Origin: Halobellus inordinatus
GTDB lineage: Archaea; Halobacteriota; Halobacteria; Halobacteriales; Haloferacaceae
Length of the DNA: 64,000 nt
Direction: 5' to 3'
NCBI RefSeq assembly: GCF_024464655.1
Contig: NZ_JANHAV010000001.1
Span: 124,001 to 188,000 of the forward strand
In this document: one piece after another, positions 4,307 to 63,112 of the stretch
Layout of the letters: every line of letters begins with the position of its first letter
Position numbering within the stretch: the stretch's first letter is position 1
Made by a program: the position numbers and the translations under genes
The notes under the pieces: generated by a model
Told to the model about the DNA's origin: nothing
The model's database searches: none
The model's input: only the letters and a program-made list of their open reading frames with translations

Positions 4307-4392
4307 CTATAGTAGCGTTTGCAACTGATTACACAGCCAATCGCACGACTGCGTGCGATTCGGTGCGTGAAGACGTGCAAACGCTACTATAG
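4307..4392. repeat. Palindromic element A1 (family A, 86 bp)
   Basis: The ends are perfect 17-bp inverted repeats, ctatagtagcgtttgca (4307-4323) and its complement (4376-4392). A second hairpin sits in the centre (atcgcacg / cgtgcgat). Three more copies occur at 16772, 43050 and 52503. A1 and A4 share one orientation and A2 and A3 the other. No target duplication is visible beyond the palindromic CTATAG ends. It lies between pcm and a small membrane-protein gene and encodes nothing. Confidence 0.9.
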
Positions 4393-14849: not shown

Positions 14850-14928
14850 TACTGTCGGACAGAAGCTCGTGAAGTATGTTGGCACCCACGGGGCGCAGAT
14901 ACTTTTCACATAGTTCTGTCCGACAGTA
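14850..14928. mobile_element. MITE-like palindromic element B1 (79 bp, TGA duplication)
   Basis: The element core runs from tactgtcggacagaa to its complement, with TGA at 14847-14849 and again at 14929-14931, giving a 3-bp direct duplication. Counting one flanking base, the inverted repeats are a perfect 16 bp. The central ggcaccc...gggcgc part is a weaker hairpin than in other copies. The minus-strand VanZ gene reads into this element and stops inside it. Further copies are at 23336, 42261 and 60024, with a remnant at 18692. Confidence 0.9.
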
Positions 14929-16771: not shown

Positions 16772-16856
16772 CTATAGTAGCATTTGCACGTCTTCACGCA
16801 CCCGATTGCCCGACAGCGTGTGATCGGGTGCGCAATCAGTTGCAAAGCTACTATAG
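16772..16856. repeat. Palindromic element A2 (family A, 85 bp)
   Basis: Ends are ctatagtagcatttgca and tgcaaagctactatag, an imperfect match with one base lost on the right. The centre is a hairpin (cccgatt...atcggg type). It is inverted relative to A1. It lies in the 422-bp gap between the cold-shock gene and the unknown gene at 17071, together with element D. Confidence 0.85.
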
Positions 16857-18266: not shown

Positions 18267-18692
18267 ATGTACGAGACGATTCTCGCCCCCACCGACGGCA
18301 GCGACGGCGCCGAGAACGCCGTCGAACGAGCGATCGAGTTGGCTGCCCTGTTCAACGCGGACCTACACCTGCTCTACGTGGCTGATTCCGAGCAGTTCTC
18401 TGCGGATAAACCGGAGGCGGAGATCGAAACGATGCTCGACGACCTCGAGGACGAAGGCCAACGAATCGTCGCCGACCTCGAAGCGCAGGCGTACGACTCC
18501 TCCGTGGATTACGTCGAGACTCACGTCGACCGAGGAACGCCCCACGAAAAGATACTCGAATACGTCGACACCCACGGGATCGAACTGGTCGTCCTCGGCA
18601 CGCACGGTGAGAGCGGTTACGAAGCGGCCCATCTGGGTCACATCGCCCACGAGGTCGCCCGTCAGCTCGACGAGCCGCTCCTGCTCGTCTGA
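18267..18692 (+). CDS. Universal stress protein (UspA family)
   Basis: 141 residues of the Usp fold. It begins MYETILAPTDGSDGAENAV and ends with the motif GTHGESGYEAAHLGHIAHEV. In ATP-binding members this motif is G-x2-G-x9-G-S/T; here the final S/T is His, so nucleotide binding is uncertain. The role in stress tolerance is known only for the family. Its TGA stop (18690-18692) is also the first three bases of a 14-bp remnant of palindromic family B. Confidence 0.88.
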   Translation: MYETILAPTDGSDGAENAVERAIELAALFNADLHLLYVADSEQFSADKPEAEIETMLDDLEDEGQRIVADLEAQAYDSSVDYVETHVDRGTPHEKILEYVDTHGIELVVLGTHGESGYEAAHLGHIAHEVARQLDEPLLLV

Positions 18693-18705
18693 TACTGTCG
18701 GACAG
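18692..18705. repeat. Remnant of family B element fused to tRNA-Phe fragment
   Basis: The 14 bases atactgtcggacag equal the left end of family B, preceded by TG so that TGA is the stop codon of the universal stress protein gene. The rest of the element is missing. At the shared ggacag the sequence passes into a partial copy of tRNA-Phe, suggesting recombination between the two. A chance 14-bp match cannot be fully excluded. Confidence 0.6.
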
Positions 18706-18725
18706 CTCGACCTTCAGTCGAGTGC
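18700..18725 (-). pseudogene. tRNA-Phe fragment (anticodon-arm copy)
   Basis: 26 bases match the anticodon arm of the intact tRNA-Phe (18909-18934) with one mismatch. No complete cloverleaf can be formed. It lies about 160 bp beyond the 3' end of the intact gene and is probably a scar of integration or recombination. Confidence 0.75.
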
Positions 18726-23335: not shown

Positions 23336-23414
23336 TACTGTCGGACAGAAGTTCGTGAATGATGTTGGCACCCACGGGATGCCGATACTTTTCACATCGT
23401 TCTGTCCGACAGTA
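23336..23414. mobile_element. MITE-like palindromic element B2 (79 bp, TGA duplication)
   Basis: Same family and orientation as B1. TGA stands at 23333-23335 and 23415-23417. The central hairpin reads ggcaccc...ggatgcc. It sits in the intergenic space between the divergent aroE and exchanger genes, about 40 bp upstream of the latter, so it does not touch a stop codon here. Confidence 0.9.
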
Positions 23415-42260: not shown

Positions 42261-42339
42261 TACTATCAGACAGAAGTTCGTGAATCATATTGGCACCGAC
42301 GGGGTGCCGATACTTTTCACATAGTTCTGTCTGACACTA
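42261..42339. mobile_element. MITE-like palindromic element B3 (79 bp, TCA duplication)
   Basis: Element core tactatcagacagaa... with TCA at 42258-42260 and again at 42340-42342. The right TCA is exactly the stop codon (TGA on the minus strand) of the lipoprotein gene. Inverted repeats are slightly diverged (atactatcag against atagtgtcag), the central hairpin is ggcaccgacggggtgcc. Same orientation as B1. Confidence 0.9.
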
Positions 42340-42993
42340 TCAGTCCGAGACCGGGTGTTCGAGCGCGCGCATCATCGACAGGACGTTCTCCTCCTCACCG
42401 TCGAGCTGCTGGGGGTAGACGCCGATCGCGAGGACGAAGTCCTCACCGTCGCGGTACTTCGTCACGTGAACGAAGACGTCGATCTCTCGGCCCTCTACGG
42501 TCGCTGTTCCCGCGAACTTCGTCACCGTCGTCTCGGTCCCCTGGACGGTGATGTTCCGTTCGCTCACCTGTCGAATGTCGCTCAGGCCGGAGTAGCGCTG
42601 CTGGACGAACTCGACCAGCCGCGCGTTCGAGAACTGCCCGATCGGGTTGAGGGTCTGGCCGGCGATCTCGACGGCGGGCGTCGAGACCACGGTGAAGACA
42701 CCGAGGCGCGTCTCGCCCAGCGGTCCGAGGTCCAGACTCTTATCGTAGCTCGTGACCTGGTTCGTGGCGACGACGCGGCGTTCCTGGCCGGCGACCTCGA
42801 ACGTCCGGTTCACGGTGATTTCCCGCGTCCCATTCGACTCGTAGCCCGCTTCTTCGACTGCCGAATCAGCGACGGCAGCCGGTTCCGCGGTGAACGTGAG
42901 CGCTTCGCTTCCAGTGAGAAAGCCGATACAGCCGCTCGTCGAGAGCAGGAGCGCGACGGCGACAGCGGCTACCACGCGACGGTTCGATATCAC
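42340..42993 (-). CDS. Secreted lipoprotein (DUF6517-like)
   Basis: 217 residues. A signal peptide with a lipobox (VVAAVAVALLLSTSGC, Cys22) precedes an extracellular beta-rich domain with EITVNRTFEVAGQERRVVATN and YSGLSDIRQVSERNITVQGT. The protein would be lipid-anchored outside the membrane. It resembles haloarchaeal lipoproteins of the DUF6517 group. Function is unknown. Its TGA stop coincides with the 3-bp duplication of element B3. Confidence 0.8.
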   Translation of the reverse strand: MISNRRVVAAVAVALLLSTSGCIGFLTGSEALTFTAEPAAVADSAVEEAGYESNGTREITVNRTFEVAGQERRVVATNQVTSYDKSLDLGPLGETRLGVFTVVSTPAVEIAGQTLNPIGQFSNARLVEFVQQRYSGLSDIRQVSERNITVQGTETTVTKFAGTATVEGREIDVFVHVTKYRDGEDFVLAIGVYPQQLDGEEENVLSMMRALEHPVSD

Positions 42994-43049
42994 GATCGGA
43001 GGTACTCACCCGATCGGGTTTAAATCCGCGGGTCGACCCCGACGTCGAC

Positions 43050-43134
43050 GATAGCAGCATTTGCACGTCGTCACCCGCCCGATCGTCCGACAGTGTACGA
43101 TCGGGTGCGCAATCAGTTGCACACGCTACTATAG
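43050..43134. repeat. Palindromic element A3 (family A, 85 bp)
   Basis: Left end gatagcagcatttgca (two changes from consensus), right end tgcacacgctactatag. The centre is a strong hairpin cccgatcgt / acgatcggg. It is in the A2 orientation. Its last three bases overlap the first bases of element C1, so the two elements abut without spacer. Confidence 0.85.
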
Positions 43135-50576: not shown

Positions 50577-51881
50577 ATGCAAGGCAGAACCTTCACGGCC
50601 GACGCCGAGCCTGGCGACGAGGTCACTGTCGCCGGCTGGGTCCACGAGGTCCGTGACCTCGGCGGGATCGCCTTCCTGATCCTCCGAGACAAGTCAGGGA
50701 AGATTCAGATCAAACTCGAAGAGGACTCGATGGACGCAGATCTCGTCGAGACCGGGCTCGACGTCTCTCGGGAGAGCGTCATCACCGTCACCGGCTCGGT
50801 GAAAGAGGAGCCGCGCGCGCCGACCGACGTCGAGATCATCCCCGAGAGCATCGAGGTGCTCGCGGAGTCCGACACCGAACTGCCGCTCGACCCCTCCGGA
50901 AAGGTCGACGCCGAACTCTCGACGCGGCTCGACAACCGAACGCTCGACCTCCGCAAGGAGGAAGTGAAAGCGATCTTCGAGATCCGCGCGGAGATCCTCC
51001 GCTCTGTCCGCGACGCCTTCCGCGACATCGGTTGTACGGAGATCAACACGCCGAAGATCGTCGCGACCGGGACCGAAGGCGGCACCGAGCTGTTCCCGAT
51101 CACCTACTTCGGCGAGGAGGCCTTTATGAACCAGTCGCCGCAGCTGTTCAAGCAGCTGATGGTCGGCTCCGGCCTCGAACGCGTCTTCGAGATCGGTCCG
51201 ATCTTCCGCGCCGAAGAGCACAACACGCCGCGGCACCTCAACGAGGCGACCTCGATCGACTTCGAGTCGGCGTTCGTCGATCACACGGAGGCGATGGACG
51301 CCTGCGAACACGTCGTCAAGAGCGCCTACGAGGGCGTCGCAGAGAACTGCCAGCGTCAGCTCGAACTGCTCGGTCTCGACGAGGAGTTCGAGGTGCCCGA
51401 GGGCGACTTCCCGCGGCTCACCTACGAGGAGGCCATCGAGCGGATCAACGCGACGGGCGAACTCGACGAACAGCTCGTCTGGGGCGACGACCTCCCGACC
51501 GAGGGCGAGCGCGCGCTCGGCGAGGACGTCGGCGAGCACTACTTCATCACCGACTGGCCCAGCGAGATCAAGCCGTTCTACATCAAGGACCACGACGACG
51601 ACGAGCAGCTCTCGACGGGGTTCGATATGATGCACCCGCGGATGGAACTCGTCTCCGGCGGGCAGCGTGAACACCGCTACGATCACCTCGTCGCCGGCTT
51701 CGAGCAGCAGGGCCTCGATCCCGACCAGTTCGAGTACTACACGAAGATGTTCAAATACGGGATGCCGCCGCACGCCGGCTGGGGTCTCGGCGGCGAGCGT
51801 CTCGTGATGACGATGCTCGGGCTGGACAACATCCGAGAAGCTGTGCTGTTCCCGCGAGACCGCCAGCGCCTGAGTCCCTAG
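50577..51881 (+). CDS. aspS: Aspartyl-tRNA synthetase (probably non-discriminating)
   Basis: 434 residues. OB fold (about 1-105), then class II core: motif 1 around [35 protein letters not shown], motif 2 [18 protein letters not shown], and motif 3 [16 protein letters not shown]. His23 in GWVHEVRD occupies the position where discriminating archaeal enzymes have Trp; His is linked to non-discriminating AspRS, which would also charge tRNA-Asn. The last residues ([11 protein letters not shown]) are repeated downstream in two further DNA copies. Downstream lie the scar repeats and the second cold-shock gene. Confidence 0.94.
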
Positions 51882-51893
51882 AGCGAAGGCGTC
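51846..51893 (+). repeat. aspS-tail repeat, copy 1 (in gene)
   Basis: 48 bp spanning the last twelve codons, stop and 12 downstream bases of aspS. Copy 3 matches 47 of 48 bases. This is the functional gene end. Confidence 0.9.
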
Positions 51894-51936
51894 GCTGTCG
51901 AGCGGGAGCCAGAAAAGCGAGCGAAGTGAGCTTTCG

Positions 51937-52021: not shown

Positions 52022-52069
52022 CTGTTCCCGCGAGACCGCCAGCGCCTGAGCCCCTAGAGCGAAGGCGTC
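52022..52069 (+). repeat. aspS-tail repeat, copy 3
   Basis: 48 bp with one mismatch to copy 1 and the same reading frame and stop ([11 protein letters not shown] stop). It lies 140 bp beyond the aspS stop. It has no start and cannot be a gene by itself. Confidence 0.9.
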
Positions 52070-52139
52070 TCTAATGAGGGGTCGTGGTACCTCGACCCTC
52101 GGAAGGGTTATCCCTCACACGACCATCGGTTTGGTTGCA

Positions 52140-52502: not shown

Positions 52503-52588
52503 CTATAGTAGCGTTTGCAACTGATTACACAGCCAATCGCACGACCGCGTGCGATTAGGTGCGTGAAGACTTGCAAACGCTACTATAT
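52503..52588. repeat. Palindromic element A4 (family A, 86 bp)
   Basis: Very close to A1 (same orientation): left ctatagtagcgtttgca, right tgcaaacgctactatat with the last base changed. Central hairpin atcgcacg / cgtgcgat. It is followed by about 150 bp of intergenic DNA before the pantoate kinase gene. Confidence 0.9.
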
Positions 52589-60023: not shown

Positions 60024-60102
60024 TACTGCCGGACAGCAGTTCGTGAATCATATTGGCACCCACGGGGTGCCGATGATTTTCACATCGTTCTGTCCAACAG
60101 TA
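60024..60102. mobile_element. MITE-like palindromic element B4 (79 bp, TCA duplication)
   Basis: Core tactgccggacagca... with TCA at 60021-60023 and 60103-60105. The right TCA is the Thi4 stop (TGA on the minus strand). Central hairpin ggcacccacggggtgcc is perfect. Terminal repeats are slightly diverged. Confidence 0.9.
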
Positions 60103-61029
60103 TCAGTCGTCCGCGGGCGCGGCCGGCGCGAAGTCGACGGGGGCGGCGTCGCGCTCTAGTTCGTCGAGACACGCTTGCGCGCCACGCTTGCCCGAGAGGA
60201 GCATCGCGCCGAACGTCGGACCCATTCGGGGCAGTCCGTCGACGGTGGCGACGGCCATTCCGGTGGCGACGACCCCCGGATGGACCACGCCGGTGTGTTC
60301 GACGACCTGATCCTCGGATTTGCTCACCCACATCGAGTCGTGGCCGGGGGAGTCGTGACCGGGTGCGCCGTACTCGTCGTCGCCGGTCGCGTCCATTCCC
60401 GTGTTGTGCTCGCTCGCGTGTTCGATGCCCGGCGCGTCCAGGACGTCCCGCTCTGCGAGCTTCGAGATGACGACGGCCTCGTGGCCGGTGGCGTCGACGA
60501 CGAGGTCGGACTCGACCGCGACGGGGTCGACGCAGGTGAGTTCGCGAGGGAGCGCGTGGACCGGCGTCCAGTTGAGGACGACGCCGCCGACGCGGTCGCC
60601 CTCGCGGACGACGACGTCGGTGAACTCGGTCATATTCTGGATCGCCGCGCCAGCGTCGCAGGCGGCCTCGATGAGTGCCGAGACGGCGTGCGGTCCGTCG
60701 GCGACGTACAGACCGGGCGCTTCGTCGGACTCCTCGTAGGGGACGCCCAGTTCGTCCAGCACCGACTGCGCGGGGTCGCGCACCGTCACCTTGTTCATCA
60801 GGAACCCGCCGAGCCAGAAGCCGCCGCCGAGGTAGTTGTTCTTCTCGACGATGGTCACGTCGACGCCGCGCTCGGCCAGTTCCTTCGCCGTGACGAGTCC
60901 CGAGGGACCGCCGCCGACGATGATGACGTCGGTGTCGACCCGATCGAGGAACTCTTCGCTCCAGTCGCTGGCGATCGCTCGCGTTACCTGCGCTTCGCTT
61001 ACGTCTGTGAATCCGGTGAACTCCGGCAT
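60103..61029 (-). CDS. thi4: Thi4-type thiazole synthase (Cys-dependent)
   Basis: 308 residues. Rossmann start [21 protein letters not shown] (about 35-55), [18 protein letters not shown] and the C-terminal [16 protein letters not shown]. Cys166 in RELTCVDPV takes the position of the sulfur-donor Cys of yeast Thi4 (Cys205), so this is the single-turnover type and not the sulfide-using His type of methanogens. It makes the thiazole part of thiamine. The promoter carries an inverted repeat, cttagtagtaag (61047-61058), that could be a regulator site. Confidence 0.92.
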
Positions 61030-61230: not shown

Positions 61231-62226
61231 ATGAATATGCTCGTCGACGGTGAGTGGCGGACCGACGCCTACCAGGCTACGAACGAGGACGGGGAGTTCG
61301 ACCGACAGGAGACGACGTTCCGCGACTGGATTCAGGACGATCCGGACGCCGAATACCCCGCCGAGTCGGGTCGGTATCACGTCTACATCTCCCGTGCCTG
61401 TCCGTGGGCCCACCGCGTGGCGATGGCCCGCCGCCTGCTCGGGCTGGAAGACGACATCTCGCTGTCGATCGTCGAGCCCGTCCGTTACGAGGACGGCTGG
61501 GAGTTCTCCGAGGAGTACCCCGATCCGGTCTACGGCGAGGACTACCTCCGCGACATCTACACGCGCGCGGACTCAGACTACACCGGCCGCGTGACCGTTC
61601 CCGTCCTCTGGGATCGCGAGCGCGAGACCATCGTCAACAACGAATCCCGCGAGATTATGCGGATGCTCGACACCGAGTTCGACGACGCCAACGGTGTCGA
61701 TCTCTGGCCCGAGGGCTATCGCGACGCGGTCGATCAGGCCATCGACGAGATTTACGACCCGATCAACAACGGCGTCTACCGCGCCGGGTTCGCCGACACG
61801 CAGGCGGCCCACGAGGCGGCGATCGAGGACCTCTTCGACGCGCTCGACCGCTGGGAGGCCGTCCTCGACGAGCAGCGCTTCCTCGCCGGCGACGTGTTCA
61901 CCGAGGCCGACATCGCGATGTTCGCGACGCTGATTCGGTTCGACCACGTCTATCACACCCACTTCAAGTGCAACCGCCGGGCGATCCACGAGTACCCGAA
62001 TCTCTGGAACTACACGAAGGAGATCTACCAGTTCCCGGGCGTCGCCGAGACGGTGAAACTCGATCACATCACGCGGCACTACTATATGAGCCACGACGAC
62101 GTGAACCCGAAGCGACTCGTCCCGTCCGGCCCCGACATCGACTTCTCGGAGCCGCACGACCGCGATCGGCTGCCCGCCGACCTTCCGTCGGAACTCCGGG
62201 CCGACGCTGCCGTCGCCGACGACTGA
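61231..62226 (+). CDS. Glutathione S-transferase family protein (Xi class-like)
   Basis: 331 residues from ATG 61231 (MNMLVDGEWRTDAYQATNED). The thioredoxin-like half has the redox motif SRACPWAHRVAMARRLLGL (Cys-Pro-Trp-Ala) and VPVLWDRERETIVNNESREIMRML; the helical half has EQRFLAGDVFTEADIAMFATLIRFDHVYHTHFKCNRRAIHEYPNLWNY, described by its conserved Tyr, His and Asp. This matches glutathionyl-hydroquinone reductases. Haloarchaea use gamma-glutamylcysteine rather than glutathione, so the partner thiol may differ. Its TGA stop is the left duplication of element C4. Confidence 0.85.
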   Translation: MNMLVDGEWRTDAYQATNEDGEFDRQETTFRDWIQDDPDAEYPAESGRYHVYISRACPWAHRVAMARRLLGLEDDISLSIVEPVRYEDGWEFSEEYPDPVYGEDYLRDIYTRADSDYTGRVTVPVLWDRERETIVNNESREIMRMLDTEFDDANGVDLWPEGYRDAVDQAIDEIYDPINNGVYRAGFADTQAAHEAAIEDLFDALDRWEAVLDEQRFLAGDVFTEADIAMFATLIRFDHVYHTHFKCNRRAIHEYPNLWNYTKEIYQFPGVAETVKLDHITRHYYMSHDDVNPKRLVPSGPDIDFSEPHDRDRLPADLPSELRADAAVADD

Positions 62227-62304
62227 TAGGGACTATCGTACGTCTCCATAGACTTCTCGCCGGACGATACGGCGTGACTCTCCGAACAGTTACGAGAATC
62301 CCTA
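62227..62304. mobile_element. MITE-like palindromic element C4 (78 bp, TGA duplication)
   Basis: Core tagggactatcgta... with TGA at 62224-62226 and again at 62305-62307. The left TGA is exactly the stop codon of the GST-like gene. The right inverted repeat differs at two bases (gagaatccc). Central hairpin is a variant (ctcgccg / cggcgtg). Confidence 0.9.
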
Positions 62305-62407
62305 TGAGCACGGTTTCTCAGCGGCCGGGCGACTGACCGACCCCCACCGCGACGCTCGCCCGGATCAACGCGTCGCCTTCTTGTCCGACCCCTCCCTCTC
62401 CTCGCGT

Positions 62408-63112
62408 ATGACTGACAGCGACGACGCGACCGCAGGGACGCCAGCCGAGACCCGACGCCAGACGCCGGGCGGCGGCGTCCGCCCGTCCGCGACCGACATC
62501 GAACCCGCGGCCCCCGCGGAGTTCGGCCTGGTACAGGCGTGGTGGGGCGACGGCAAGGGCAAGACGACGGCGTCGCTCGGGATGGCCTTCCGCGCGGCCG
62601 GCCACGGCTACCGCGTCCACCTCCTCCAGTTCCTGAAGGGCGGCGCCGACTCGGTCGAAGGCGTCCGCGGCGAGTACAACGCAATCGCGGCCGTCCCCGG
62701 CATCTCCTACGAGAACACGGGTCACTACGGCTGGCACGGCCTGCTCGACGGCTCCGACGACGACGAGCACCACGCGAAGGCCCGCGGCGCGCTCGAACGA
62801 ACGGCGGAAATCGTCGACGGCGCGGCCGACGCTGACCTGACGGCCCCGCTCGATCTCGACGGCGACCCCACGGACGGCGTTCACCTGCTCGTCCTCGACG
62901 AGATCCTCTACGCCGTCGAGCAGGACCTCCTCGAGGAGGCCGACGTGCTCGATCTAATCGACGAGAAACCCGATAACCTCGAACTCGTCCTCACCGGGAG
63001 CCACTCGGAGCCGACCTACCTGCTCGACGCCGCCGATCTCGTGACCGAAGTGCGAAAGGTGAAACACCCCTTCGACGCGGGCGTTCGCGCCCGGAAAGGC
63101 ACCGAGTACTGA
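62408..63112 (+). CDS. cobA: Cob(I)yrinic acid a,c-diamide adenosyltransferase
   Basis: 234 residues from ATG 62408, with a 35-residue disordered leader. The ATP site is [23 protein letters not shown] (P-loop GDGKGKT), then [14 protein letters not shown] and [18 protein letters not shown] (Walker B-like). It adds the adenosyl group to the cobalt of corrinoids. Its stop overlaps the start of the next gene (TGATG). Confidence 0.92.

Follow-up and report, generated by a model that had tools for sequence, protein, structure and literature searches.

Short MITE-like elements of Halobellus and other haloarchaeal genera whose target-site duplication often is the stop codon of a gene

The window analysed here, a stretch of 64,000 nucleotides from the 3.4-Mb genome of Halobellus inordinatus, carries on its plus strand a GST-like gene (61237-62226; start according to our own gene caller) with the Pfam domains GST_N_2 and GST_C_2, an N- and a C-terminal GST domain. 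The open reading frame closes at the TGA at 62224-62226, which is directly followed by a 78-bp MITE-like element, C4 (62227-62304, plus strand), with the imperfect inverted ends TAGGGACTATCGTACG and GTTACGAGAATCCCTA, and by a second TGA (62305-62307, plus strand). The order of the junctions is ...GCCGACGAC, TGA, TAGGGACTATCGTACG...GTTACGAGAATCCCTA, TGA, GCACGG, in which the first TGA is both the stop codon of the GST-like gene and the left target-site duplication on the plus strand. A gene of the ATP:corrinoid adenosyltransferase (BtuR/CobO) family (62408-63112, plus strand; PF02572) lies downstream and is given for context only. A preliminary description of the window had proposed this arrangement, and both the sequence and the Pfam domains of the gene confirm it.

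In ten genomes of the same genus, the GST-like gene is likewise followed by a BtuR/CobO-type gene, and all ten orthologues end with ...GACGACTGA at the homologous codon, the element being absent. From this we conclude that the 3-bp repeat at C4 is the target-site duplication of a stop codon which was already present, and the proposal that the protein is left unharmed, because the duplication rebuilds the stop, is supported by the sequence and by these relatives. Neither an empty site without the TGA nor the element at the same place in distant species was encountered. The preliminary description had also expected that the TGA of an empty site would be followed directly by the sequence that now lies beyond the far TGA; the single TGA and the missing element were indeed found in all ten relatives, but their spacers downstream of the GST-like gene are too diverged for base-by-base alignment, which leaves the right-hand junction of C4 unproven.

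For other insertions, 15 excised junctions were concatenated into one query and searched in two relatives. At locus L143 the relative reads GATCTC TGA GAAGG, which equals our own excised sequence (90% identity over 193 nt, both flanks conserved); at L192 and L124 the relative has the same TGA and no element, and at L187 it carries TAA at that codon. As the stops are present in relatives that lack the element, the insertions came after the stops. The possibility that the element itself creates the stop was ruled out by excision and by the relatives without the element.

Within the window, two copies of a second family, B, also abut stop codons: B3 (42261-42339, plus strand) is followed by the TCA at 42340-42342, the stop of a minus-strand DUF6517 gene (42340-42975), and B4 (60024-60102, plus strand) by the TCA at 60103-60105, the stop of a minus-strand Thi4 gene (60103-61029). 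A universal stress protein gene (18267-18692, plus strand) ends with the TGA at 18690-18692, to which a B remnant that consists of a single element end (18693-18706, plus strand) is joined without a gap. The earlier count of four genes with a duplicated stop therefore holds for C4, B3 and B4, which sit on the stops of real genes; the remnant adjoins a stop as well, but its duplication cannot be shown because only about 14 bp of one end are left. The remaining copies of the window lie off stop codons. C2 (52397-52474, plus strand; duplication TCA), C3 (58343-58419, plus strand; TTG) and B2 (23336-23414, plus strand; TGA) are intergenic, B1 (14850-14928, plus strand; TGA) has entered a predicted minus-strand gene 11 codons before its 3' end, and C1 (43132-43209, minus strand) lacks a clean duplication and abuts a repeat of another kind, A. 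B1 swaps the last 11 codons of the predicted gene for element sequence with a new stop. Altogether, the pattern of the element ends has eight matches in the window, compared with a mean of 0.09 in shuffled windows.

The A family is separate from B and C and comprises near-palindromic repeats of about 86 bp (CTATAGTAGCGTTTGCAAC...) at 4307-4392, 16772-16856, 43049-43134 and 52503-52588, which follow no common target rule. Several C copies elsewhere in the genome (L148, L152, L164, L171) sit at a TGA within an A copy, so that small repeats nest in one another. A direct repeat of 60 nt (51846-51905 and 52022-52081; 90% identical, 176 bp apart) is unrelated to the elements.

In the stretches of the H. 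inordinatus genome that were read, which are centred on copies and to which all copy counts refer, we counted 84 C and 45 B copies, 81 and 41 of which are full-length. The elements measure 77-80 bp, which is too short to encode a transposase, and carry terminal inverted repeats of about 15 bp per end. An exact 3-bp direct repeat flanks 70 of the 81 full-length C and 37 of the 41 full-length B copies (107/122), and a 4-bp repeat flanks none. Among these 107 triplets, TGA (49) and TCA (41) make up 84%, followed by TAA (6), TTA (6) and others (5), and 102 fit TNA; the target sequence is palindromic and centred on CTNAG, with ACTNAGT as a frequent form. The ends of the elements read TAGGGATTATCGTA / TACTGTCGGACAG / TACGGATTATTGTA, with the TNA repeat, and another Halobellus genome (G004) harbours a third family, whose ends (TACGGATTATTGTAA) are related. 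Of 342 sampled genomes, 43 have ends of the form TNA-TA[N]GGATTAT[N]GTA, and such ends are present in 23 out of 89 genera of the order. The elements are mobile, as indicated by empty sites in relatives and by the many copies, and with their short length, inverted ends, target duplication and multiple copies C and B are MITE-like, non-autonomous elements. The dominant family differs between Halobellus species, with C and B in H. inordinatus and the third family in G004 (loci L198-L209, L304-L330), which suggests separate bursts.

A 3-bp TNA duplication is characteristic of the IS1031 group of the IS5 family, whereas IS630-type elements duplicate the 2-bp TA. An IS630-type origin was rejected, since at 107 copies the two outer triplets repeat each other in the same orientation and the duplication measures 3 bp. 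The elements resemble the IS1031 group in the TNA duplication (102/107), but no transposase with these ends was found among the six H. inordinatus loci of PF01609, the one transposase family that was searched, and searches with the end patterns likewise revealed no autonomous partner. In the plasmid searches, Haloplanus and Halobellus ramosii each contributed a single remote copy and no parent element was detected; in viral contigs, ten matches to one element end were obtained, and chance alone would produce a few of these.

The association with stop codons was quantified on sequence from which each element plus one repeat had been excised, with genes called by a simple codon-usage caller without curation; the same caller defined the null expectation. 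In the H. inordinatus genome, 46 of the 107 insertions (43%; 31/70 C, 15/37 B) lie exactly on the stop of a predicted gene, 59 are intergenic and 2 coding. According to the target-weighted expectation, stops represent 16-17% of the non-coding sites (p ~ 1e-11), although the intergenic weight may include missed genes, in which case the excess would be smaller. The third family in G004 has 14 of 19 insertions on stops (9% expected), and in five relatives all nine C copies are on stops. In seven genomes of other genera, where the sampled copies were those that came first in each genome's list in the survey of end patterns, 35 of 53 insertions are on stops, which corresponds to 73% of the non-coding insertions versus 14% expected (p = 4e-20, a value somewhat too small because three sites orthologous between two sister species each entered the count twice). 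It is scarcely credible that the pattern is an artefact of gene calling or that the elements make the stops: the calls do come from an uncurated, simple caller, but they were made after removal of the elements and against a null set by the same caller, the genes with stop insertions in the H. inordinatus genome encode 83-1013 aa, four genes that were checked have Pfam domains up to their end, and the stops recur in relatives.

Coincidence would require that a TGA-rich target and abundant TGA stops produce the pattern on their own. Both TGA and TAA are among the TNA targets, and gene ends do fit CTNAG; nevertheless, 9-17% of the non-coding insertions would be expected on stops by this reasoning and 44-74% are seen. 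Even among identical CTSAG cores, the odds of stop over intergenic use amount to 3.8 in the H. inordinatus genome and to 17.8 in the others, and of the A repeats, which served as a control, 1 of 14 lies within 3 bp of a stop, compared with 35 of 81 C and 17 of 41 B copies. We therefore regard coincidence as very improbable. GC content or an extended target context as the cause of the excess was rejected, and a benefit from tandem stops (TGA-TAG) was set aside, since TAG starts only the C family.

Pooled and expressed per weighted target, the insertion rate reaches 45.5 on stop codons, compared with 9.0 within 1-30 bp and 9.3 within 31-100 bp downstream of them; other intergenic sequence has a rate of 4.5, the final 15 codons of genes 1.5 and the rest of the coding sequence 0.2. 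The sharp step from the stop codon to the next 30 bp is not explained by target sequence, flank GC or proximity to gene ends alone. Stops followed by the next tandem gene within 30 bp, or overlapping with it, were never used (0/73). From these data we conclude that the association is general, i.e. that a MITE superfamily of several haloarchaeal genera is associated with stop codons several-fold over other suitable sites.

One explanation for the excess at stops would be that the copies right after the stop are kept because their hairpin aids mRNA 3' ends or transcription termination. The predicted hairpins are strong (-25 to -43 kcal/mol), and some insertions lie between closely spaced convergent genes. 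We consider this explanation improbable: a hairpin placed 1-30 bp downstream of the stop ought to work equally well, yet the use of such sites is about 5-fold lower, the preference for convergent pairs is not significant (p = 0.15), the insertions show no orientation bias and Rfam contains no match for the elements.

Guided insertion, in which the transposition machinery or the state of the DNA at translated gene ends would steer the elements to stops beyond their preference for CTNAG, agrees with the codon precision of the spike and with the 4-5 times higher use of CTSAG stops relative to sites with the same core that lie 1-100 bp downstream of a stop; the stop shares of young and old copies in the H. 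inordinatus genome are similar as well. On the DNA, however, a stop and another CTGAG could differ only via transcription or translation, we know of no mechanism that reads a stop codon on DNA, and guided insertion is harder to reconcile with the smaller proportion of stop insertions in the genome that had the largest burst. We therefore consider guided insertion possible, yet rather unlikely, and it is equally doubtful that a superfamily distributed over many haloarchaeal genera senses gene ends at codon precision instead of combining a sequence preference with later selection.

The fate of individual copies bears on such later selection. At ten copies with mismatched triplets, the gene still stops at the triplet on its side, and the change affects the far triplet or end, the commonest form being TGA to CGA; this fits selection acting on one triplet as a stop and leaving the other free. 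The far CGA (T to C) recurs at L133, L157, L121, L118, L325, L326 and L330, and L375 has TAA on the gene side and TGA on the far side. Moreover, two sister species of another genus (G271 and G215) share three insertions, all on stops (L338/L347, L340/L349, L342/L350), from which it follows that some copies persist across speciation.

The account that we favour, and to which we assign about an even chance as a whole, combines insertion of a MITE into CTNAG, rebuilding of the stop, purging of coding hits and preferential retention of stop copies. Non-coding elements of about 80 bp would be moved in trans by a transposase, although the searches described above found none with these ends. Insertion into the palindromic CTNAG duplicates the central TNA, as the flanking triplets show. 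Gene ends in these GC-rich genomes often read ...C TGA G, which makes many stops good targets, and the duplicated TGA or TAA rebuilds the stop beside the gene and leaves the protein unchanged, as both the sequence and the relatives that lack the element show. Insertions within genes are probably purged by selection, considering their near-absence, so that stop codons may represent safe landing sites in crowded genomes. The weakest step is the last one, according to which the remaining several-fold excess over equally good intergenic targets would mainly be due to long-term retention of stop copies. Retention is favoured because the share of stops is higher in genomes with fewer copies, compared with 43% in the genome with the large burst, and because the three shared insertions are all on stops. 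It is opposed by three observations: retention predicts older copies on stops, yet stop copies in the H. inordinatus genome are not significantly more diverged (C, p = 0.19; B, p = 0.80); selection would hardly distinguish the stop from the 30 bp that follow it, where the rate is nonetheless about 5-fold lower; and no depletion of intergenic copies between divergent genes was seen.

The preliminary reading is hence supported yet understated, as the elements have a target motif, CTNAG, about half of all copies are on stops, several haloarchaeal genera are concerned and target preference alone does not account for the excess. The elements provide a quantified case in which the target duplication of a selfish element recreates a stop codon and renders the insertion harmless in compact genomes, and they raise the sharp question of whether the stop-codon spike arises at insertion or by later selection. 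For genome annotation, it should be considered that hairpins directly at gene 3' ends could pass for terminators.

As a kind of element, the families described here are MITEs. Like the prokaryotic MITEs covered by a 2024 review (PMC10969869), they are short and non-coding, with inverted ends, a target duplication, many copies and a stable hairpin, and lie mostly outside genes; what sets them apart is that in about half of the copies the triplet they duplicate is itself a stop codon. The review describes a preference for intergenic and 3'-untranslated regions, as for QMITE2 of Coxiella, and makes no mention of stop codons. QMITE2 of Coxiella burnetii is also a MITE family found mainly at gene 3' ends, but its duplications are long and variable (7-11 nt) compared with 3 bp here, and coincidence with a stop is reported as a single case only (PMC5896051). 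In the open-access literature that we searched, we came across no MITE family described as regularly duplicating a stop codon, and as far as searched the association is unreported. The nearest named haloarchaeal elements are the small mobile repeats SMR-A and SMR-B of Haloquadratum walsbyi, which are described as targeting PATEs and IS605-type elements (PMC3119063). PATEs have IS605-like subterminal palindromes and no terminal inverted repeats, whereas the elements described here have terminal inverted repeats. With the small mobile repeats they share a length of 80-110 bp, prominent inverted ends, multiple copies, a haloarchaeal host, the lack of a known mobiliser and insertion into other repeats, and they differ from them in the 3-bp TNA duplication, the small mobile repeats being described as elements without target duplication (PMC3119063).
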